64,000 bases of DNA from Yponomeuta sedellus (Eukaryota; Arthropoda; Insecta; Lepidoptera; Yponomeutidae). A program made the position numbers and the translations under genes. Positions 61-55,337 of this stretch are shown here, piece by piece. The notes beneath the pieces were generated by a model that was given only the letters and a program-made list of their open reading frames with translations, made no database searches and was not told where the DNA came from. The number at the start of each line of letters is the position of its first letter. Position 1 is the first letter of the stretch. The stretch lies in the NCBI GenBank assembly GCA_934045075.1, contig OW203726.1:13800037-13864036 (forward strand), written 5' to 3'.

Positions 61-240
61 TACCACGGATATAAATTTACATCCGTGGTGGGTACATGTA
101 TTTTCTTTTGTTACTTTTTAAATTACATTCTAAATATTTATATTAGTTATATTTTAACATATTACTCTGCCGTGTGAACTATTCTTTACCTCACCATGTT
201 TGTATCACGTGTTTAACTTTTTTTAACATACATCCTTCTA

Positions 241-809
241 TTACACTATTTTTATTTTTAATGCACTAACCCTAACTGCAAAGTAGGTGGTCGGGGCTTT
301 AAGTAATGCAATTTGGTTAAGTCAGATGTCGCTGCCTGTACGTAATACAGAGAAATATTGTAAAGAGGTTCGAAATTTCACTGATGCCGTGAGTCGCCCA
401 TTGGCTCAATTGGTAGAGCGCTGGTACGGATAGCCAGAGGTTGCGGGTTCGAATCCCGGCATGGGTGAAATTTTTAGCCTCTAAATAGGTTTTTAAATTT
501 GTTCCTTAGCACGGGTTAGTGCATTAAAAATAAAAATAGTGTAATCATGTGGGTACAGTGATATCGTTCCGATGTTAAAAAACCTAACTGCAAAGTAGGT
601 GGTCGGGGCTTTAAGTAATGCAATTTGGTTAAGTCAGATGTCGCTGCCTGTACGTAATACAGAGAAATATTGTAAAGAGGTTCGAAATTTCACTGATGCC
701 GTGAGTCGCCCATTGGCTCAATTGGTAGAGCGCTGGTACGGATAGCCAGAGGTTGCGGGTTCGAATCCCGGCATGGGTGAAATTTTTAGCCTCTAAATAG
801 GTTTTTAAA
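241..809 (-). mobile_element. LR retroposon, tandem dimer of tRNA-like core
   Basis: Two near-identical tRNA-like cores lie in tandem at 395-467 and 707-779. Each is preceded by the same upstream block and followed by the R block. On the minus strand the insertion starts with L (809 leftward) and ends with the R tail at 271-241. The 31-bp tail motif occurs inverted at 241-271 and direct at 514-544. The whole 569-bp unit is bracketed by TACATCCTTCTA at 229-240 and 810-821, a 12-bp target duplication, so the dimer inserted as one piece. Each core folds as a cloverleaf: acceptor CGCCCAT/ATGGGTG, D stem GCTC/GAGC, anticodon stem CTGGT/GCCAG, B box GGTTCGAATCC. The loop has C rather than U at position 33, so a functional tRNA is unlikely. 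Confidence 0.8.
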
Positions 810-2323: not shown

Positions 2324-3424
2324 GTGTTTAAATGTCGGGAACGGAGTGGCAATTAATCAAACGCACGCACGCACTCGATAAATGAATATAGGAACGCAAG
2401 AAATAGGCTAAATACATAAACTAGTTTGATTTAGAAAGAAAGATTACCCTTCACCTCTACTTTCAAGAAATGTTTGTTTACTTTTTGTATCAAAAATATC
2501 GCATAAACATATAAGGTGAAGACACGGATGTCAAATTTTGACATCTGTGGGTGAAGAGTGTTAGAATTGTGAAAACATTCAGTAGCTTCGTATTAATCTG
2601 TGGCTTCGTACGTACAACGTTTCATTAAATGCTAAACCTGAAAATATTTTCTTCGGTATCGATAATAAAACCAGTTTTTAATAAGTAAAAGTTTAAACAA
2701 GATTTTCTGGTATTCTTCGAACTTTAAAGAATAATTTAGAAAAACAATTTACTCTTTCCGAAAACAATTAGTGATGTCCTCCCAGCATATTAAAAGTTTC
2801 ATAACATGTCGTTTGTAAATTAAAACTAAAGTATGTTTGTGTAGAAATCGCCTCATGCGGATCCCTCTCCTAAAAATCACTATAACACATCTGACTGAGA
2901 GATTCATCTGACCCTTTTTCCAAAAATAATCTGTAAAAACATGACTGTAACTCCCGCGGATTAATAAAATGCAATTACAATTTAAGTCCTACTTTTGTAC
3001 GTTATATTTTGTGCAATAAGGAATGGATAAATAAATATGACTTTTTTCCATTAGTTTATTAGTGGCTCACTGAACCCATGAATACAAAAGATTCGTTCGG
3101 AAATGGCAACAAATTGTCCAAACCCTCTGACAAACGTCTAAAAACAAAAATCAAACTTATTTTAGTAGGTAAATGCGAGATCTGATGGCTGTACCCTTTC
3201 TACCCGGACGAACGGTTCCAAGTCCCAAGATGTCTTGATATCGAGACGGCGGTCTTGATTTTACTCATTCTATTTATGTATGAATGGGTTTGAATCCCGA
3301 ATTTGAATCCATGTACCAATGACGTCGTTCTTCAAGTTACGTAAAATAGTGAAATTGTAGTAGATTGCTACGCTTCATGACAGTAAGGCTTAGTTACTGT
3401 AAACAAAAACATTATGAGGAAACG
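2324..3424. other. no feature recognised
   Basis: AT-rich single-copy DNA. A small palindrome near 2526-2548 (GATGTCAAATTTTGACATC) is the only structure noticed. Confidence 0.5.
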
Positions 3425-6107: not shown

Positions 6108-6540
6108 AAACACATAATATAACAACAAAAAATTACAAAAGTATTACAAAGCAAAATTTTGCACCAATGACAAAAACAACTAAAAAAACATCACTGACGC
6201 AAACAATTGTACAAGGGAACAAATAAGAAAAATAAAAATAAGAAACAAGGAAAGAAAAGGAATAAGATTGTTTTTGAAGGTATATTATTTTTGATCCGGA
6301 CATGACAAGGTTGGTACATAGGTAAAACACACACACACAATATAACAATAAAAAAATGTCACAAGTATAAGAAAGCTGAATTTTACACCAATGAGACAAA
6401 CAACAACAAAAGTAAGCATAGGCTCTTCAACGTAGAGTACAAGGGAAACAATTAAGAAATAAGACTAAGAAACGGAAATAAAAGTAATAAGATTTTGAAG
6501 GCTATTTTGTAATAAGATTTTGAAAAGTAATAAGATTATA
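6108..6540. repeat. imperfect tandem duplication, ~220-bp units
   Basis: Two diverged units (about 6108-6290 and 6330-6512) share AATATAACAA, TTTTACACCAATGA, TACAAGGGAA and a terminal GTAATAAGATTTTGAAGG. A partial third unit straddles the LR insertion, resuming at 7201-7240. This array is the target into which the lipase-carrying element inserted. Confidence 0.6.
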
Positions 6541-6603
6541 TTATTTTTAATGCACTAACCCGTGCTAAGGACAATTTTTAAAAAACCTATTTAGAGGCTA
6601 AAA

Positions 6604-6930
6604 ATTTCATTTGCCACTCACAACTCCAAATCGATATCTTCCGCCGTTTTCGTCAAGTACTCATTGACACCGTATAGAGCTTCCTTGCCTAAGTAATAAG
6701 GCGCGATTTCATTGGTAGGTAAATAATAGATGCCTTGTCGTGTGAAATTAGTCTTTGGACCTAGAAGGTTAGTGACTAGATTTCCGTCGTAGCAGTCGCC
6801 GCGTCTCGCGTGTGCAATGGAATCGCATCGCACGGCGAGAAATTTGTCGGGATTTCGGTTGGCGTAGGTCCAGTAGAAGGCGGCGCGCACGTGGCTGCAT
6901 AGCAGGAAACACGGCAGGATGAAGTTACCA
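6604..6930 (-). pseudogene. lipase-family 3' fragment (left arm plus loop)
   Basis: The minus frame contains CSHVRAAFYW, then NPDKFLAVRCDS, GIYYLPTNEIAPYYLG and ends AEDIDLEL before TGA. This corresponds to the part of insect pancreatic-lipase-like (PF00151-type) proteins from the catalytic histidine (in CSH) to the C terminus: CSHxRA, F-AxxC, GxYYLxT and P-xxG are family landmarks. About 95 codons remain of a protein usually over 300 residues. The nucleophile serine and aspartate regions are missing. There is no frameshift within the fragment. The source gene is not in the window. Confidence 0.7.
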
Positions 6931-7161
6931 GCCGTGCGATGCGATTCCATTGCACACGCGAGACGCGGCGACTGCTACGACGGAAATCTAGTCACTAACC
7001 TTCTAGGTCCAAAGACTAATTTCACACGACAAGGCATCTATTATTTACCTACCAATGAAATCGCGCCTTATTACTTAGGCAAGGAAGCTCTAACGCAAAG
7101 GAGATACGGTGTCAATGAGTACTTGACGAAAACGGCGGAAGATATCGATTTGGAGTTGTGA
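6931..7161 (+). pseudogene. lipase-family 3' fragment (right arm)
   Basis: Inverted copy of the C-terminal part of the left arm, from AVRCDSIAHARRG to DLEL and the same TGA. It begins after the catalytic histidine. It differs from the left arm mainly by an in-frame 12-nt insertion (adds four residues, TQRR, after GKEAL). Otherwise the arms appear nearly identical. Confidence 0.7.
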
Positions 7162-7439
7162 GTGGCAAATGAAATTTTTAGCCTCTAAATAGGTTTTTAA
7201 AAAAGTAATAAGATTTTGAAGGTATACTATTTTGAGCCTGACCTAAATACTATTCGACTGGAAGTGTGTGTAGACCGTGCTAATTTTATTGAGCTCGGTT
7301 ATTGTGATTGATTTCAGCATTATTATTATTAAACTACTATTTTCCAGACCAATAGTTGAATATTTGGCGACAATTAACAATGTTGAACAGTAAGGAGTTA
7401 AAGATTGTTTAGAAGTGCCAACTTAGATTGAGTGCAAGA

Positions 7440-7671: not shown

Positions 7672-8280
7672 TATATTCTATTTAATGTACTAACCCGTGC
7701 TAAGGACAATTTTAAAAACCTATTTAGAGGCTAAAAATCCTATGTAAGTAGTTATGATATTTCTATAAATATTACGAGTATACTTACCCAATAAAAGTAG
7801 TTGTGAAACATGTATTACGTACAGGCAGCAATCAAGAGAGTATTGTAAGGAGGTTCAAAATTTCACTGATGCCCATTCGCCATTAGCTCAGTTGAGAGAG
7901 CGCTGGCACGGTTAGCCAGAGGTCGCGGGTTCGAGTCACCGGCATGGGTGGAATTTTTAGCCTCTAAATAGGTTTTTAAGATTGTCCTTAGCGCGGTTAA
8001 GTGCTTTAAAAGAATATAATCATGTGGGTACAGCGATATCATTCCGATGTAAAACCTAAGTGTAAAGTAGGTGCTCGAGGCTGCAAGTGATGCAAATTAC
8101 TTCAGCCAGTTGTTGCTGCTGGTACGTAATACAGAGAGTATTGTAAAGAGGTTCGAAATTTCACTGATGCCGGTGAGTCGCCCATTAGCTCAGTTAGGAG
8201 AGCGCTGGCACGGTTAGCCAGAGTTCGCGGGTTCGAATCCCGGCATGGGTGGCATTTTAGCCGCTAAATAGGTTTTTAAA
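7672..8280 (-). mobile_element. LR retroposon, composite with two tRNA-like cores
   Basis: On the minus strand L begins near 8280. tRNA-like cores lie at 8179-8251 and, more damaged, about 7877-7950, separated by an R tail and upstream block in tandem. A further R lies at 7735-7675. Both cores have anticodon-loop ACGGTTA (anticodon position GGT) rather than the ACGGATA of the 241-809 copy. It belongs to the subfamily with a GAATATAATC tail. A flanking duplication is not clear. Confidence 0.7.
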
Positions 8281-35246: not shown

Positions 35247-35259
35247 ATTACTTGAGATT

Positions 35260-35481
35260 TAAAAACCTATTGAGAGGCTAAAAATTCCACCCATGCCAGG
35301 ACTCGAACCCGCGACCTCTGGCTAACCGTGCCAGCGCTCTCCCAAGTGAGCTAATGGGTGGCTCACCGGCATCAGTGAAATTTCGAACCATTTTACAATA
35401 CTTTCTGTATTACGTGGAATTTTTAGCCTCTAAATATGTTTTTAAATTGTCCTTAGGGTTAGTGCATTAAAAAAGAATACA
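35260..35481 (+). mobile_element. LR retroposon with one reverse tRNA-like core
   Basis: L, reverse core (35288-35360), short upstream block, then R. ATTACTTGAGATT at 35247-35259 and 35482-35494 is a perfect 13-bp duplication. R has lost GCACG of its tail. Confidence 0.8.
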
Positions 35482-36073: not shown

Positions 36074-36872
36074 GACGTATTTCATTGTATTTTTAATTAA
36101 ATTTTTAATGACATGAACACGGAAAGCAATGCGAAAATGAGAAAGTGAAATAACCTTTATTTACTGGTTAGTAAAGTTAAATTTTCATTGAAGAAAGTGT
36201 ACATTCTCTAGAAATTTCTATCGAAATTTGAATTCTATTCGATTACGGATGGGGGCACACATGATAAAAATCTATCGATAATTAGTTGTCTATGACTTAG
36301 TAGTCATACATACTTAACGGTACTTATGTATTGTAAATTCCAATTCGTCTAAGTAGGTAAAATAATTATTTTTATTTTATACCTACCTACTTCCTAAGTG
36401 CCTTTTCATATGCACCCGGTCGCCGTCCGGTCGCCGGGCCGGGTAAAGTAGTAATGTATGAGCTCTGGTCGCCGGCTGGTCGTTGTGCATGTGAAAACTG
36501 TCATTGGAGCTCATACATTACTTTTCATACAAGACATGACATGAGCACATACGCACAGCTAGATTGCGATATAGTTTTTCTTGACCAGTTTATCAGGGAC
36601 TGAAATATTTAAGAAACTATCAAAGTAATTTTAATCTTACATTTTTAAATATTCCAACCGAGATGTAAAGTGAGGTTATCGAAAACGACTCATATGGTTT
36701 TTTTTTACTTCAGTTCAAAACATTAAGTAGTTTACTACTGTTTACCTGTTCGAGTGGTTGTTCTCTTGGCGAGCATAAGATTTTTGTTTTGTTATGTTAT
36801 TTGTTTTATGGTTTTTTTATTATTCTGCTATTTACCCTTAATACTTCAACCCCTTTGACAACAGCAAACTGA

Positions 36873-37407
36873 TTTAAAAACCTATTTAGAGGCTAAAAAT
36901 TTCACCCATGCCGGGATTCGAACCCGCAACCTCTGGCTATCCGTGCCAGCGCTCTACCAATTGAGCCAATGGGCGACTCACGGCATCAGTGAAATTTCGA
37001 ACCTCTTTACACTATTCTCTGTATTACGTACAGGCAGCGACATCTGACTTAAGCAAATTGCATTACTTACAGTCCCGACTACCTACTTTGCAGTTAGGTT
37101 TAACATCGGAACGATATCACTGTACCCACATGATTATACTATTTTTATTTTTAATACAAATAGTAATGCAATTTGCTTAAGTCAGATGTCGCTGCCTAGA
37201 ATATTAGTATAATATTAGGATAGTGTAAAGAGGTTCGAAATTTCACTGATGCCGTGAGTCGCCCATTGGCTCAATTGGTAGAGCGCTGGCACGGATAGCC
37301 AGAGGTTGCGGGTTCGAATCCCGGCATGGGTGAAATTTTTAGCCTTCAAATAGGTTTTTAAATTTGTTCCTTAGCACGGGTTAGTGCATTAAAAATAAAA
37401 ATAGTAT
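36873..37407 (+). mobile_element. LR retroposon, head-to-head dimer
   Basis: L, reverse core (36903-36975), full reverse upstream block and reverse tail to about 37155, then a forward upstream block, forward core (37260-37332) and R. AACAGCAAACTGA at 36860-36872 and 37408-37420 is a perfect 13-bp duplication, so the 535-bp inverted dimer integrated once. It lies between the two THAP pieces. Confidence 0.85.
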
Positions 37408-37475
37408 AACAGCAAACTGAGGCAATGACAAAACAACCCTCTGGGATTCAAAACAATTTGGAAGTGAGTTTTTGT

Positions 37476-39011: not shown

Positions 39012-39987
39012 AGATAAATGGTTTAAGGGTACTTTTGACTTTAATAGATTAAAATAAATCCTAGTACATAGAATGTTCATGGTCTTACGATTTTCTTAAC
39101 GCGACGTCGAACTCGCTAAGAAACCTTCTGGGTCAGCGAGTTTCTGACTTATGTACCACAAGAAAGCGGAGGAAAAGTTTGAAAAGCCAATGTGAATCAA
39201 TCTCAAACTTCTCAATAAAGCATCAATGATGTATTGAGTGAGACTGAGGGCGTTTCCTGACTTGCGGGCGAAGGTGGGCTCAGCGTACCTGAGACATTTG
39301 CATTTATATTAACCCTTAAGGGAACAGCTTTGTGAAAATTTATCTAAATTAGATTATGACGGCGCGTTTCGCTTTCGATAAGCTTGAATGAACTCAACGC
39401 CATTCTAAAGCTTTCAAGAAACGGAGACAGACAAAATGCTTCACGGGCGTCGTTAACTCCTAAGAGAGTTTAGCCAAAACTTAGCCGGTCGAGTGCACAT
39501 TTTTCATCAAAACTTTCTTAGATTAATTAACAATGATTTTATTGAGCTATTGATTATAAGACTTTATAGAGATTAACTGGATAATTGTTCACAGAAAGGC
39601 TCGTTATGAATAAATGAGAGCCACGTGGATTGGACCCGAAGCTCAACTTAATCCAGTTATAATTAGTCTCTGATTGCGTGGGGACTCTAATTGCTCAGAA
39701 ATTAAGAACTTGGAAGGAACTCACTTTGTTAACACTAAGAAACTTCCAACGACTTAAGCCTCTGTATAACCATAAAGTATGTTTCACGAATAAATACGAC
39801 ACAAAGGTAAACCTTAAATATTGTAGATAGGGTTAAAAAAGGACTAGGACGTCCTGTATGCGCCTTTTCATATGAAAACGATAGCGACCATTATATATAT
39901 CTCGAATAAGGAGATTTTGTAAAACCCAAGGAGGGTTTGAAACTCGCTTTCAAAATCGGATAAAATTTGTAAATCATGCGAATATGC

Positions 39988-39990
<3 letters not shown>
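39012..39990. other. no feature recognised
   Basis: AT-rich with moderate GC near 39100-39300. No coding frame supported. Confidence 0.4.
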
Positions 39991-40020
<30 letters not shown>

Positions 40021-40246
40021 TGTATGTATGTATGTATGTATGTATGTATGTATGTATGTATGTATGTATGTATGTATGTATGTATGTATGTATGTATGTA
40101 TGTATGTATGTATGTATGTATGTATGTATGTATGTATGTATGTATGTATGTATGTATGTATGTATGTATGTATGTATGTATGTATGTATGTATGTATGTA
40201 TGTATGTATGTATGTATGTATGTATGTATGTATGTATGTATGTATG
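39991..40246. repeat. (TATG)n microsatellite, ~64 units
   Basis: 256 bp of uninterrupted tetranucleotide. It is followed by CGGACATGCAT/ATGCATGTCCG (perfect hairpin, 40248-40273) and (CCGT)n, (CTGT)n runs to about 40305, then the tail of the minus-strand 5S-derived SINE. Open frames across it (YVCM or IHTY repeats) are artefacts. Confidence 0.95.
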
Positions 40247-40324
40247 ACGGACATGCATGCGTATGCATGTCCGTCCGTCCGTCCGTCCGTCTGTCTGTCT
40301 GTTTGTATCAAATCATTAAGAAAT

Positions 40325-40735
40325 GCTTCGATATCAACCCATGCGTCATGTCCCCACTGCTGGGGCACCGATCTTTTCCTGCATCGTAGGAAGGTTAGGC
40401 CATATTCCACCACGGGGGTCAAGTCCGGGTAGGAGGGTGGGTGGTGGAGGTGGAGGGTGGAGGATTGTAAGACAGTGGCGGGCCGTACTGTCAGAAGTTG
40501 TAAAGCCACCCATAAAGCCTCTGAAATGGCTTAACGCCTGTCATTTCATGTCAGCCGGCACCAACGGCTTAATACGCCTTGCGAAGCACGGAAGCGCTCG
40601 GAAAAGTGCCACTAGCGGTAGTCACAGGATGGTCACGCATCCTGCACCTGACCGCGCCTGTTGTTGCTTAACTCAAGTGATTGATTCCAATCACTCGGTT
40701 CGACTAGGCCACGGGTGCTTCGAAAAAAATGCTTC
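40325..40735 (-). mobile_element. 5S rRNA-derived SINE, near full length
   Basis: Reverse copy: CCACTGCTGGGGCAC at 3' side, CTTGCGAAGCACGGAAGCGCTCGG, then the 5S promoter in reverse (CACGCATCCTGCACCTGACCG and GTTGTTGCTTAACTCAAG) and TGGCCTAG. A GGAGGGTGGGTGGTGGAGGT insertion lies in the body at about 40430-40462. Confidence 0.75.
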
Positions 40736-45010: not shown

Positions 45011-45240
45011 TTAGCTCTCTAGGAGATCAATTAGATCTTGACGGTCAATTATTTCCCCGTCACTTCCAGAATCAGAATCATAACTGACAGAACTTTTGTA
45101 TGGGCGCAGGGAATCGGCTGGTACGATTGCAATGAAACTTTTGTACCCCTTCATCCCTTTTATGCTACGAATTTGGTAACGGTCGTTCTGTAGTACTTTT
45201 GCCACTTTATAAGGTCCAGCGTAATCTTTGTCTTAATCTT
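45011..45240 (-). pseudogene. integrase C-terminal remnant
   Basis: The frame opens with GPYKVAKVLQNDRYQIRSI-type sequence and continues to an acidic tail (SYDSDSGSDGEIIDRQDLI) and stop. That is the GPY/F module at the end of Gypsy integrases. It lies in a different frame from the upstream pol segment, across the deletion junction near 45216-45255. Confidence 0.7.
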
Positions 45241-45882
45241 AATCTTCGTTATTGGATATATCTTGCCGACAGGTTTTCCGTAATTACCTTTCTTGTACAA
45301 GCAGTCCAGACACGCGGTAACGTACTTTTTTATAAAACGTGTCATACGCGGAAACCAATAATCTGCTTTGATAACCTCGTCACAACGTGTTAACCCTACA
45401 TGGCCAATGTCATCATGATGCATTTTCGCAATGCGCCAACGAGCTTGTTTAGGGACTAGTAGTCGTTCTCCAGTCAGTGTTTTTCGGAATACTCTACCGT
45501 CTCTAATGCAATAGTTGGCCTTTACATCGCCACTCGCCTCATCACTCCGCAATTGGTTGTAAAAAGATTGTATTTTATCGTCTTGCAACTGTGCTGCCAA
45601 TAACCAATCGTCGATGTTATCCGCACCTAATACAGTGGGAACTGGATTCCGGCTCAATGCATCAACATGCCGCATGCGTGTTCCAGGTCGATACATGACT
45701 TCTATGTCAAAATCTTGAATCTGCAGCCACCAGCGAGCAATACGTGGAATAATATCCTGTTTTGTAAGGGTGCTCCTTACTGCAGAACAATCGGTGACAA
45801 CCTTCACGTGAATTCCAGTGATATAGATTTGGAATCGCTTTAGTGATTCTACCACTGCAAGAGTCTCTAACTCATAACTGTC
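45160..45882 (-). pseudogene. pol segment: RNase H end and integrase zinc finger
   Basis: Begins after an in-frame stop at 45883-45885. It includes the end of RNase H (VVTDCSAVRSTL, RPGTRMRHVDALSR) and the integrase HHCC finger (HHDDIGHVGL to CLDC). After KKGNYGKP the frame enters lysine/isoleucine-rich junk (KIKIKTKI). The D-D-E catalytic core that should follow is missing, so integrase cannot be active. Confidence 0.8.
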
Positions 45883-47259
45883 TTAAACCATTTCTTCCTT
45901 ACTAGTCACTCTACTGAAATACATTACTGGCTTTAAGTCTCCGTTAGATTGTTTCTGCATCAATATACCGGCTATACCCATTTTACAGGCGTCTGTATGT
46001 ATTTCCGTTGCATTTTCCCTATTATATAAAGCCAAAACAGGTTTGCTCACCAGCAGTGATTTTAACTTTCCGAACGACTCCGTTTCACGATCTCCCCATG
46101 TCCAGGCAACATTCTTCTTCGTTAATTCTGTTAGAGGCTTAGCTATCATCGCGAAGTTGAAAATGAACTTTCTAAAATATGAACACAGACCGATGAACTG
46201 ACGTACCTGATGCACGTTACAAGGAGTGGGGAAGTTTTCCACAGCGTTCAACTTTTTGTCACCTGGTCTTATACCGTCCGGTGTCACAATATATCCCAGG
46301 TATTCTATCTCCGTTTTTAGGAAGGTACATTTGTCAATGTTAAGTTTCAGGTTTTTCTCTCTCAGAAGTTTTAACACCTTTTCTAGCAAGACTAGACCAC
46401 CGTCAACATCAATTGAAGGCAAAAGCAGGTCATCCATGAAAGTGAGTACCTCCTCGTATCTTAATGTTCCAAGCAATTTGAAAATCGCCCGTTGGAAGAC
46501 GGCAGGCGCATTAGCCAACCCAAATGGAATCCGCGTATATTCCCATTAACCATCCGGCGTAATAAAAGCAGTATACTTCATGGAGTCTTTAGCCATCGGG
46601 ATCTGATGGTATCCTTGGGCTAAATCTAAGCTTGAGAAAAAACACTTTCCAGCTAGCTTACTCAGTTGATCGTCTATGTGTGGTAAAGGAAAACGATCCT
46701 TTATTGTCACTGCGTTTAAGGCACGGTAATCTACACAGAGTCTGGTATCGCCATTCTTTTTCTTCACTAACACGACTGGTGAAGCGTAATTAGATTGTGA
46801 CTCCTTTACAACTCCGGCATCAAGTAAGTCCTTAACTTTATTTCTGACTGTATCTAAATCTTTTTGGGCAAGTCTATAAGGTCTATGAAACACCGGTGTG
46901 GTAGTAGAGAGCTCAATATTCATTTTAGCTAAATCTGTCTTTCCTATAGCTTTAGTATTCTTGGCGAAGCAGTCTTCATATGATAATAGAAGTTCAAATA
47001 AGCGGCCCTGATCCTGTGCTGACAATTCGCCTACTTCGAGTCTGGATAGTGGAGTATCAGCAATCTTGCAGTCTTTTAGGCAGGAAAGTGTACGTTCGAG
47101 AACCAATTCTCCCACATGGCTCACATCACTAGATGTTACGCATTTATTAGCTGATCCCTGGAATGAAATTAGTGAGAATGTGCAAAAACACTTGAATCGG
47201 GTGAAATCGTTCTTTAAATCGTGAATAACACTTGGACTTTTTCTTTTGAACGCAACCAA
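45883..47259 (-). pseudogene. pol segment: reverse transcriptase and RNase H start
   Basis: Same frame throughout but broken by TAA at 46543-46545, between TPDG and the WEYTRIPFG block, and ending at TAA 45883-45885 inside RNase H. Upstream part: RT fingers/palm with VDYRALN and LAQGYHQI. Downstream part: FGLANAPAVFQR, TFMDDLL (the xxDD catalytic motif), LGYIV and RNase H TDACKMG. RT of this family copies element RNA in cytoplasmic particles. This copy needs other elements' proteins. Confidence 0.85.
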
Positions 47260-47838
47260 TTATCATTGTTCTGTGATATCAAACTTCAAAAAAGTCTGTG
47301 AACTAGAAAAAAAAGAAATTGTGTTTTGATCGTAGATAGCTCTACGGTTTTGATTGAACTTCTGTAAATCTAATTCTATTTTTATAACAAGTAAACAACA
47401 GACAGACACTGTAAACAATCTGTTATGATAAGTAAAATTATTCTATGGAAACTACATTCTAGGATAATCACTAACGAATGACGCACTCAAGTTTTATTAG
47501 AGTGATACTTGTGCTTAAAAGTAGTTGGAGTATTACACTTTGTTCCCGTCATAAAACCAATAACTCTCGCAGCATCAGGAGTAGGTATATGAATCAGACT
47601 GACAGAAATAATCAGGTATCTAGTCAGAAAAGGTTAGTTGGACAGACAGAAATTAGTCAGACGTACAGAAAGTAATTGAAATCAGGTAACTACGACAGAC
47701 AGAAATTCTTCAGATGTACAGAAAGTTGAAATCGAGTATCTAATCCGTAAAGGTTAGTTGGACAGACAGAAATTGTTCAGACATACAGAAAGTAATTGAA
47801 CAGAATCAGACAGACAGAATATTGTCAGACAGATTAAA
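47260..47838. repeat. gag-pol spacer with CAGACAGA-type tandem repeat
   Basis: Between gag-protease and RT is about 580 bp without a frame. 47580-47830 repeats units with AGTTGGACAGACAGAAATT and CAGACxTACAGAAAGTAATTGA (three to four imperfect copies of about 60-90 bp). Such a gap is not expected in a Gypsy element and may be an insertion or local expansion. Confidence 0.6.
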
Positions 47839-49605
47839 TTACATAAATTTGCCCCATACCATTAAAGTGTTGATCACAGGCCTTTGAAGATTGCCCTCAG
47901 TAGTAGATTCTTTGGTCATCTCTGTCTCATTACTGGGAACTTCCATACAGGGAGTGGCACGTGTGATCAGCCTGCCCTCACACCATACAATTTCGCTGCT
48001 TCCTAAATTGTACACACGAACATATCCCTTGCATCCATTTAGCAATGTTGCAGGTAAAGCATAGAACTCATGCCTCATGTTGTGAATCCGTCGAGCAGTG
48101 CAGATATTGTTTTCTTTAGGGTTTCCAATCACATTTACTTCCACATAAAATGACTCTCCTGGAGGGATACAAACTCCAGCACAGGTTGTTATCTTGTAAC
48201 TGTCTTCCTCAGTAACCCTTACAAGCTTGGCTGAAGATTGAGTGGTGACTAATGAAATGCCTTCAGCGTTGATCACTGGTTGTCCAATTAGTATATCAGC
48301 GTCAGCTGGTAGTTTCAGGTGAGTAACAGTAGCTCTTGTATCAAATGGCAGTCCATCCACAACCAAAGAAATATTTATTTCACCCACAGCTGGCACAGTG
48401 CTGCCTGTGAAGCCCTTCAGTAAAGTTGTACTTTCATTTATCATGCATTTCAGTGAATTTGCCATGGAAAGGGTCACAACATTCACTCGAGCTCCTGTGT
48501 CTATATATGCTTCACAAGTTTGGCCACTTACCTGCACAAGTTTTTTATAAATCTCATTGGTATCTTGTACCATATTTATTGTGGCTGTTTCAGCCTTATT
48601 TTTCCTCATCTTGTCAAGGTTAGGACATCTTGTTATGACATGACCTCCTTCAGAACAGAAATTACAAATTCGTTTGTCAGGTACTGGACAGTCTTTAACT
48701 ATATGATCCGTGGAGTTGCATCTGAAACAGTTGAGCTTGCGGGCACTGTTGATTGGTGCAGGCATTGTGTGTGTCATAGCATTACGGTTACGATTGTCGG
48801 GAAACCTTTTTCTTTCAGTATTACGGTAAACAGTGGGTGTATATTCAGTTTTCTTTAGTCCTTGTTTATGGCTGTAAGTTTCGAAAGCTGACAAATATCC
48901 AGAATAGAACTCCTCTGGTGTGTCACACTTATAAGCTTTTGCATTATTCTGTAAATCTGCTGGCAACCCCTTGATGATACAAGATAATGATGCATTGTCA
49001 TCAAACCGTAGACGTCGACACATAGCAAGTTTATCATGATAATAATGGGTTACTGTTTCTGTATGAACTTTCTTTCTAGACACAAACTGCTCAAGTAAAT
49101 CTGCATATTCGAAATTTCGTGGAAAGGCATTAATGAGCAGTGATTTCCACTGGTCCCATGTATAATTGTATTCTTCCAGTCTACTGAACCACAGTTGCGC
49201 TTGACCTGCTAGTGTGGTTTGCATAATCAATATTTTTGAGTAGTCATCCCATTTATGGACTAAGCCTAACTGATCTATTTTAGCCAGCCAATTCTTTATG
49301 TTCCCCTCACTATCATCGGGATCGAATGGGATGACAATTTTCTCGCCTGAAATAGCCCTAGGCCTTGTTTGGTTCATCAAACATCTTTCTACCATCCTCT
49401 CCAATTTTTGAGTCATTAACTGTTCTAGTATTACATTTGGCAAAACGTCGTCCTCAGAATCTGCTTCAGCCTGATGGCACGGCGACAAGTCCGGAAGCAC
49501 GTCCACGCGTAAGGAGCCCGCGCTCGTAGTAGGTGTGGCTGACAAGCGAGCCTTCTTTGTTGCCCGGCCGTACGGGCTGGTGCGATTACCTAGGAAACGT
49601 TTCAT
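47839..49605 (-). CDS. gag: Gypsy gag-protease polyprotein
   Basis: Open frame of about 588 codons from the first ATG (MKRFLGNRTSPYG); the frame is open slightly further upstream without ATG. Residues about 95-250 match the retrotransposon gag capsid region (WLAKIDQL, YSKILIMQTTLAG, AQLWFSRLE, LEQFVSRKK). Two CCHC zinc knuckles follow: CFRCNSTDHIVKDC and CNFCSEGGHVITRC. The aspartic protease has YIDTGARVNVVT (active-site DTG) and DILIGQPVI. These parts form the particle, bind element RNA and cleave polyproteins. No stop interrupts it, unlike pol, so it could still supply gag in trans. Confidence 0.85.
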   Translation of the reverse strand: MKRFLGNRTSPYGRATKKARLSATPTTSAGSLRVDVLPDLSPCHQAEADSEDDVLPNVILEQLMTQKLERMVERCLMNQTRPRAISGEKIVIPFDPDDSEGNIKNWLAKIDQLGLVHKWDDYSKILIMQTTLAGQAQLWFSRLEEYNYTWDQWKSLLINAFPRNFEYADLLEQFVSRKKVHTETVTHYYHDKLAMCRRLRFDDNASLSCIIKGLPADLQNNAKAYKCDTPEEFYSGYLSAFETYSHKQGLKKTEYTPTVYRNTERKRFPDNRNRNAMTHTMPAPINSARKLNCFRCNSTDHIVKDCPVPDKRICNFCSEGGHVITRCPNLDKMRKNKAETATINMVQDTNEIYKKLVQVSGQTCEAYIDTGARVNVVTLSMANSLKCMINESTTLLKGFTGSTVPAVGEINISLVVDGLPFDTRATVTHLKLPADADILIGQPVINAEGISLVTTQSSAKLVRVTEEDSYKITTCAGVCIPPGESFYVEVNVIGNPKENNICTARRIHNMRHEFYALPATLLNGCKGYVRVYNLGSSEIVWCEGRLITRATPCMEVPSNETEMTKESTTEGNLQRPVINTLMVWGKFM

Positions 49606-49632
49606 TTGGCGTAGGAACTGATATCCCACTTC

Positions 49633-49836
49633 TGAATATTAACAAAAGGGAAAAACTGCAAAGCTCAATTTTAAACTTTCATTCTCCTCTTTACAACTGT
49701 TTTCAAAAAGTCCCTCCGAAAATTAATGTCTTCCCGCCAAAAACGAACACCACAGATTAACTGCATCTTCCCAGATAGCACAGATTAGGATATCCTTCCT
49801 GAATGCCACGGTGTCACATACACCATGGAGTTAACA
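49633..49836 (-). repeat. 5' LTR
   Basis: About 204 bp. Immediately inside it the minus strand reads CAGAAGTGGGAT, which resembles a primer-binding region seen in some insect Gypsy elements (tentative). It contains the promoter by position; no TATA box was verified. Confidence 0.8.
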
Positions 49837-54404: not shown

Positions 54405-54560
54405 GGGGAAACCTGAGTGTCTGAGGTGTTCAAATACCTCAGCCCTTGAAATTGCCAATCAGCGGTGGGCACGCGTGGTAGTGAAGCCCATATTCAAAAG
54501 CCCATATTATCTCTCTGAAAGAAGACCTGTGTCTTGCCGTGAGATGTTTATAGGCTACAT
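54405..54560 (+). repeat. 3425-type retroposon
   Basis: CTGAGTGTCTGAGGTGTTC, GGTGGGCACGCGTGGTAG and TTATAGGCTACATA. Confidence 0.6.
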
Positions 54561-54564
54561 AAAA

Positions 54565-54788
54565 ACATTGAATGTGAGTGGAAGCGCTGGTAAGGGACGT
54601 CCCAGGCGGATATACATCGACCAAAATAGGGGATGTATAAGCAAAGGGAAAAATAAAAAGTACCCGGAACCGGCGTGCGTGCATGCAACGACTTATGAAC
54701 GTTGATGAAGCGAAGGTGATCTGTCAGGTACATGGCAAGTGGCAGTCCCTGGTCTCTGCCTACCCCTCTGGGATACAGGCGTGACGTT
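54565..54788 (+). pseudogene. RTE-like LINE C-terminal relic
   Basis: GGACGTCCCAGGCGG onward, same family as 53130. Ends GCGTGACGTTATG and passes directly into the TATG microsatellite. Confidence 0.65.
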
Positions 54789-55068
54789 ATGTATGTATGT
54801 ATGTATGTATGTATGTATGTATGTATGTATGTATGTATGTATGTATGTATGTATGTATGTATGTATGTATGTATGTATGTATGTATGTATGTATGTATGT
54901 ATGTATGTATGTATGTATGTATGTATGTATGTATGTATGTATGTATGTATGTATGTATGTATGTATGTATGTATGTATGTATGTATGTATGTATGTATGT
55001 ATGTATGTATGTATGTATGTATGTATGTATGTATGTATGTATGTATGTATGTATGTATGTATGTATGT
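54789..55068. repeat. (TATG)n microsatellite, ~70 units
   Basis: 280 bp, uninterrupted, beginning at the 3' end of the LINE relic. Confidence 0.95.
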
Positions 55069-55337
55069 TTGTAAACATTGGTAGACTACACAATCATTTC
55101 TTCGGGCTCTAGAGTCCAATACTCAAACAGTTTTCCTATAGAATACAAACACAACCATACTTGTCATTTACCTCTGTTTCGTAGCCTACAAAGAAACAGC
55201 AAAACAAGATCATTCCAATGGTATTGTACTGTTCTAACCAGCGCAAATTAAATAGGCATCTCTCGCAAGGAATAAGATAGGTTGCACGGGTTAAATGCGA
55301 TTTGTAACTAAACTACTAATAGCATTAAAGAGTAAAA

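Follow-up and report, generated by a model that had tools for sequence, protein, structure and literature searches.

A hairpin copy of a lipase last exon in Yponomeuta sedellus, its donor gene and a proposed Penelope-type origin

Positions 6538-7200 of the window (64,000 nt of contig C5 of Yponomeuta sedellus, 13800037-13864036) form a near-perfect palindrome, in which the last exon of a lipase H-like gene and the ends of a repeat family lie between 15-bp repeats. We consider it likely that this copy was made by two-step retroposition with the machinery of Penelope-like elements (PLEs), an RNA of lipase, R and tail being copied twice. The steps can be read at base level because the donor gene, with the repeat inserted in its 3′ UTR, and the product occur in one genome: the first step is visible as sequence, and the second as the product between the 15-bp repeats.

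The lipase palindrome and its donor gene

The order along 6538-7200 is antisense tail, antisense R, antisense lipase, a single-copy middle, sense lipase and sense R. The features are as follows.

6523..6537, unstranded: left target-site duplication AAAAGTAATAAGATT, 15 bp, a length reached by 0/47 mismatched-pair controls
6538..6576, minus: tail (‘outer’), antisense; putative cDNA start at site 2
6577..6606, minus: R module, antisense; the inner half of what the preliminary description called L
6618..6933, minus: lipase last-exon segment, antisense, long arm; stop codon at 6618-6620
6837..6930, unstranded: single-copy middle, lipase sequence in the long arm only (read from sequence and alignment)
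6931..6933, unstranded: head-to-head junction with a 3-nt microhomology, GCC (alignment)
6931..7161, plus: lipase last-exon segment, sense, short arm with the 12 bp; stop codon at 7159-7161
7173..7200, plus: R module, sense; ends at site 1, inside an A run
7201..7215, unstranded: right target-site duplication AAAAGTAATAAGATT

The preliminary description had reported two inverted copies of a lipase C-terminal segment, and the repeat search, the alignment and the reading frames running to the stop all confirm them. In the repeat search of the window, the arms match at 99 per cent (6575-6675 with 7104-7204) and 98 per cent (6675-6845 with 6922-7092), and when the left arm is aligned in full with the right, a single mismatch and a single 12-bp indel are the only differences. 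The single-copy middle is ~94 nt long. Both arms stay in frame up to the lipase stop codon and specify the C terminus of a lipase H-like protein; the copied piece starts inside the last exon. The 12 bp are absent from the long (left) arm at 6674/6675; because they encode residues present in lipase homologues, we read their absence as a deletion in that arm. Pfam Lipase scored 25.6 bits against the longer fragment, slightly below the cut-off of 27, and the Pfam search of the shorter fragment gave no match. Among thirty-four lipase homologues, twenty-nine carry an organism name (five are unnamed), and all twenty-nine are what we take to be Lepidoptera.

The lipase copies had been described as bracketed by two modules, L and R. 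This holds for R, while L is not a separate module; it is the reverse complement of R plus a tail of ~36-39 nt. R is indeed fused to the lipase just past the stop codon, at a spacing of 11 nt rather than the ~10 bp first given. The tail agrees with the donor 3′ UTR through GCATTAAAAATAATATAATC, after which flanking sequence begins, and the left outer end of the palindrome overlaps the target duplication by 4 nt (AATC). The predicted RNA fold of 6549-7204 has an energy of -528.4 kcal/mol (mean of 20 shuffles -175.4, sd 6.05), and the locus, if transcribed, would give a long hairpin RNA.

Both copies of AAAAGTAATAAGATT sit exactly at the element ends and in register with both, and none of the 47 mismatched-pair controls for the left end gave a match as long. 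Further copies of the word occur in the local array. A freer flanking-repeat search (14 copies, 300 random stretches each) was concordant for several copies of the repeat family and, for the lipase copy, favoured a 16-nt array word that is out of register. Removal of the insert and one repeat restores a 22-nt array word as found at 6480-6501. The array as sole source of the 15-bp repeat, a condition under which the earlier reading was to be abandoned, mostly fails, since the repeat is in register with both ends and excision restores the array word; as the array holds the word, it keeps some probability at this locus.

A search of the genome (657.5 Mb, 57 contigs) with the lipase exon alone returned two loci, both scored: the window copy on C5 and a multi-exon lipase gene on C1. 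The latter is the source gene, with R in its 3′ UTR, that the preliminary description had proposed to look for. Its discovery supports the view that a small non-autonomous retroposon captured and mobilised the 3′ end of a lipase gene, and its position on C1 rules out a nearby source with a simple local inversion.

The donor exons lie in order on the plus strand of C1 between 8068537 and about 8075628-8075630. The last exon is C1:8075315-8075630 (+), and upstream exon matches follow one another on the same strand at 8068537, 8069517, 8070414 and 8074260. These tblastn matches cover homologue residues from ~32 onward, the first exon not being located, and one tblastn stretch has a stop ahead of its likely exon start. 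Splice signals are present as GTGAG after the penultimate exon and as an acceptor, TTTGCAG, ahead of the last. The last intron also contains a lone antisense R-like piece of 28-34 bp, just 5′ of the last 3′ splice site (L009, ~3220-3260).

As in the window, R begins 11 nt past the donor stop codon. The 3′ UTR reads R-outer-body-tRNA-R-outer and is bracketed by AAATGAAATT; this copy of the repeat family has one arm only, is in gene sense and 5′-truncated, and ends at site 2. With the copy placed just 3′ of the stop, the donor 3′ UTR starts with R, the tail and another unit. The 10-bp duplication was equalled in length by 1/47 controls, and it terminates in the same letters with which R starts. 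For this reason the lipase-R fusion seems to lie exactly where R follows the tRNA-like core elsewhere, as had been noted; the coincidence is apparent, and the 10-bp duplication together with the 5′-truncated donor copy accounts for it. A template jump at the tRNA 3′ end was considered as the origin of the fusion and rejected, since the 3′ UTR insertion with AAATGAAATT explains it.

The family copy in the donor 3′ UTR is the source of the R joined to lipase in the window. Three C-to-T differences from the donor are common to the two window arms. They account for the 3 of 273 aligned positions that differ in the right arm; the left-arm alignment, 407 long, has 13 gap columns in addition to its 3 mismatches. 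The donor holds a single lipase copy, so the palindrome most likely arose on insertion. The 15-bp repeat had been taken to suggest that a ready-made palindrome moved as one; its place at the element ends stands, but that movement is not supported.

The tRNA-bearing retroposon family

R and the tail belong to a protein-less, tRNA-bearing family with a 312-bp unit of tRNA-like and short segments (outer 1-48, body, tRNA 209-284, R 284-312) and no reverse transcriptase (RT) or GIY-YIG ORF of its own. The tRNA-like region is supported by ARAGORN and Rfam in several copies, and eight of the nine ARAGORN tRNAs in the window fall within copies of the family. Two-arm copies are joined head to head with variable inner junctions. 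Three copies from the window show the range.

240..809, plus: 33-nt inverted arm and almost two tandem 312-bp units (outer-body-tRNA-R); 13-bp duplication ATACATCCTTCTA
7681..8280, plus: copy beside the lipase copy, with an inverted L arm, ~72-bp filler and nearly 1.5 units
36872..37409, minus: copy with the tRNA-like core in both arms; 13-bp duplication, AACAGCAAACTGA on the plus strand

The filler of the second copy, between its L arm and its unit, occupies 7739-7810 and is for the most part unassigned, and no clear target duplication was found for this copy. All ten tabulated two-arm copies in the window have one end at site 1 (unit 309-318) and the other at site 2 (31-48 of the next unit), the two sites being 31-48 nt apart. 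The tabulation leaves aside four incomplete or complex window copies (near 19.8, 27.7, 52.6 and 58.2 kb) and three bare tRNA-like matches of 27-29 bp. Several further copies, including the one in the donor 3′ UTR, have one arm and end at site 2, while L029, L035 and L036 apparently have site 2 at both ends and carry no target duplication.

An ATTAAA lies in the tail ~15 nt ahead of the site-2 start. Site 2 is also A-rich, and the start there may instead have been at a processed RNA 3′ end. In any RNA that includes the tail, site 1 has an internal position. The R-tail alone folds no better than its shuffles (73/200 fold as well, z -0.27), and pattern scans of IMG/VR with R and with L gave 0 matches each.

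Target duplications were scored in forty-eight family copies: ten from the window, thirty-six entries from thirty-five regions, the array on C2 described below and the donor 3′ UTR copy. The thirty-six extra regions came from the top L-end matches in the genome (best 40 of 788 candidates) and are biased towards site-2 copies because they were chosen by that match. Duplications of 10-15 bp flank 20/48 copies, and at least 10 bp were found in 9/2256 mismatched left-right pairs; at a threshold of at least 11 bp, the counts are 18/48 copies versus 0/2256 pairs. The 28/48 copies without a duplication of at least 10 bp include some with possibly misplaced boundaries, and one copy (35257-35473) gave a 13-bp near-match in the freer search.

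Two copies contain additional DNA. In L027 (528-1016), flanked by a 12-bp duplication, ~130 bp of non-family DNA lie between two tail segments, and this may be a second transduction. L019 (~702-1005) has ~300 bp inside a family copy with similar inverted words at its ends, as judged by eye; we rejected this segment as cargo, its inverted ends looking like those of a separate small insertion.

The largest copy is C2:4516189-4524690, a single insertion with a 13-bp duplication, ACTCGTACTAGAT (it includes L034 and L050-L054). Sixteen complete units in the inverted arm and ten in the sense arm make twenty-six nearly identical units of 313-315 bp, with seven variable alignment columns among them, five of which are run-length differences. 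The variants of one arm are not mirrored in the other, an argument for independent synthesis of the arms, although run-length noise may contribute. A tandem or circular template would account for the many units, as would a later expansion of the array, and the copy may reflect reverse transcription rolling around a circular RNA.

Elsewhere in the window, 45160-49638 (minus strand) holds retroelement pieces with gag, protease, RT, RNase H and integrase zinc-binding matches, the gag piece including a weak Ty3 capsid match. Long simple repeats at 39891-40389 and 54548-55112 are open in several reading frames. In the wider genome, L063-L068 are six near-identical open frames of 1249 aa, five of them no more than 70 kb from a contig end, which we presume may be telomeric LINEs.

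Resident Penelope-like elements and the proposed mechanism

PLEs are present in this genome, with an RT and a GIY-YIG match of 18.7 bits that falls below the Pfam cut-off of 22.6. At E≤0.001, PF01541 found one locus, presumably SLX1 judging from its reading frame, and PLE loci appear only at E up to 10 (21 candidates). A PLE without a stop is represented by the query copy and three near full-length matches at 97-98 per cent identity (69 matches, best 62 of 1845 candidates). Among these sixty-nine matches, neighbours within 1.5 kb form fourteen head-to-head, nine same-direction and zero tail-to-tail pairs, and the query copy itself is palindromic over 2405 bp. The resident PLEs, some with open frames, include L079 (C20:18478866-18481007). 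A copy on C3 that could be read to both ends has its own site 2 on the left, its own site 1 on the right and a 12-bp target duplication, TACGTTTTGTGA; other PLE copies end at either of two sites ~38 nt apart. This layout is the same as that of the tRNA-bearing and lipase copies.

The ends themselves are a different matter. Local alignment of the PLE end with the R-tail is no better than shuffles (123/500 reach the score), an anchored comparison over 60 nt is weak (33/1000 shuffles as good; R alone, 226/1000), and the two tails are unlike (984/1000 shuffles as good). The local, R-alone and tail tests give no support for direct homology of the ends. A PLE is therefore a candidate partner, and with ends that are not clearly homologous, either a PLE family escaped detection, or recognition is of structure, or the partner is not a PLE.

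A PLE mechanism for the tRNA-bearing family is proposed from the matching architecture and a published PLE assay. The first step is seen in the one-armed copy that lies in gene sense just past the lipase stop on C1. The second is seen in its product, last-exon sequence with R and the tail as two head-to-head arms at C5; here both nicked target strands would have primed reverse transcription on the lipase-R-tail RNA. Priming would be PLE-like and internal to the RNA, at site 2 where the tail ends and at site 1 where R ends. The two cDNAs would then halt at different points of the exon and be joined through three shared bases, with the enzyme supplied by a PLE of this genome.

The assay concerns an anole PLE (Poseidon, PAc, from Anolis carolinensis). 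As its available text describes (PMC11167929), the purified protein extends both target strands in vitro. It initiates cDNA synthesis at two neighbouring positions inside the RNA, and the interval between them corresponds to the 30-40 bp tail. The family resembles PAc in its two start sites, 30-40 bp tail, tandem copies and AT-rich targets; PAc, by the same text, differs in being autonomous and in having a hammerhead ribozyme and no captured gene. Two adjacent end sites with an optional tail of 30-40 bp, inverted head-to-head arms, tandem units and target duplications are features that the tRNA-bearing family shares with PLEs, and the lack of its own RT and GIY-YIG ORF sets it apart from autonomous ones. 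Hammerheads have been reported in PLEs without being held universal, and none was found here by Rfam, either at gathering threshold in the window or at E≤10 in 36830-37440.

The same searches led us to reject a retrozyme identity. Metazoan non-LTR retrozymes, in the available description (PMC7229834), are likewise short tandem non-coding units with a suggested PLE partner, but they have a hammerhead ribozyme where the present family has a tRNA-like domain. The lepidopteran tRNA SINEs PxSE and HaSE share the tRNA-related region in a short retroposon (PMC8010984, PMC3272025). They are set apart by description: consensus sequences of the PxSE type mostly end in simple repeats (PMC8010984), HaSE1 has a 3′ tail in common with an RTE LINE (PMC3272025), and the available portions of both papers make no mention of head-to-head arms. 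In the monarch butterfly, PLEs rank with the most numerous elements (PMC8848866), so their machinery is not unexpected in Lepidoptera.

Copying of a host gene by PLEs is already known from rotifers. There, the available text reports (PMC3846280), PLEs have placed a copy of a host gene, introns included, between their pLTRs, and palindromes were ascribed to self-priming, which would need antisense templates. The parallels are a host gene copied in trans between terminal sequences with a target duplication, inverted terminal sequences (pLTRs in the rotifer) with an optional tail (31 bp there) and head-to-head order. In the rotifer case, however, pLTRs of a known PLE form the flanks, and direct pLTRs enclose the gene with its introns, whereas the termini here are protein-less and tRNA-bearing, the cargo is part of one exon and present in both arms, and the donor is still present. 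New with respect to that account (PMC3846280) are the donor in place, the tRNA carrier and the unequal ends. Our literature search, covering titles and abstract openings and few subscription papers, turned up neither a tRNA-bearing PLE-type SINE nor a captured lipase.

Self-priming is also the closest rival here. In a snap-back version of the Penelope-type reaction, the first arm, made from a sense or antisense transcript, would fold back and template the second. Head-to-head palindromes are what it would yield, the GCC of the junction could pair with GGC at 6834-6836, and it is the mechanism proposed for the rotifer PLEs in the text available (PMC3846280). Arms made in this way should share their outer end, though, and in 10/10 tabulated window copies one arm ends at site 2 and the other at site 1. 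The seven variable columns of the C2 arms are unmirrored (five of the seven are run lengths, and may be noise), and the 4-nt overlap of the left outer end with the target flank also speaks against it. The unequal outer ends lead us to favour two-strand priming, and we regard snap-back as unlikely.

Conventional LINE-driven SINE retroposition with twin priming would fit the tRNA-like core, the eight of nine window tRNAs that lie in family copies, the A-rich end at site 2 and the target duplications of 10-15 bp. Twin priming yields 5′ inversions, in which an adjacent segment is inverted, while both arms here copy the same segment. No long poly(A) or simple-repeat tail is seen, the two ends fall at fixed sites inside a tandem unit, and the PLE copies of this genome share the layout; we hold this reading to be quite unlikely.

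Long, asymmetric inverted termini could also point to capture of the lipase fragment by a TIR DNA transposon or a Helitron-type element, and a Helitron with asymmetric inverted repeats was our first idea. Helitrons leave no target duplication, and TIR families have duplications of fixed length and constant inverted termini. The duplications found here contradict a Helitron or Helentron, and they vary from 10 to 15 bp, unlike those of a TIR transposon or MITE. The inner extent of the arms differs by copy, a single copy divides twenty-six tandem units between two arms of opposite direction, and the copy in the donor 3′ UTR is one-armed, leaving a DNA element very improbable. Long-read artefacts can produce palindromes, and the local array has further copies of the flanking word; but a local gene inversion or an assembly artefact is hardly credible with the source on another contig, a 12-bp indel between the arms, which also have different end sites, and duplications of at least 10 bp at 19/47 other family copies.

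Implications for the host

More tentatively, and with rather less confidence than we have in the two-step origin, we suggest that the tRNA-bearing family may parasitise PLE machinery, sometimes as a circular or multimeric RNA, and that the R-tail of ~70 nt could act as a portable tag that writes hairpin copies of genes. If so, landing in a 3′ UTR in gene sense would turn the host transcript into a PLE template and lead to dsRNA-forming copies elsewhere, and the parent gene could face siRNAs. The lipase case hints at how little sequence may suffice to make a host transcript a Penelope-type template. It would be a direct path to new inverted-repeat loci that match a host gene, and a possible origin of hairpin-derived small RNAs.
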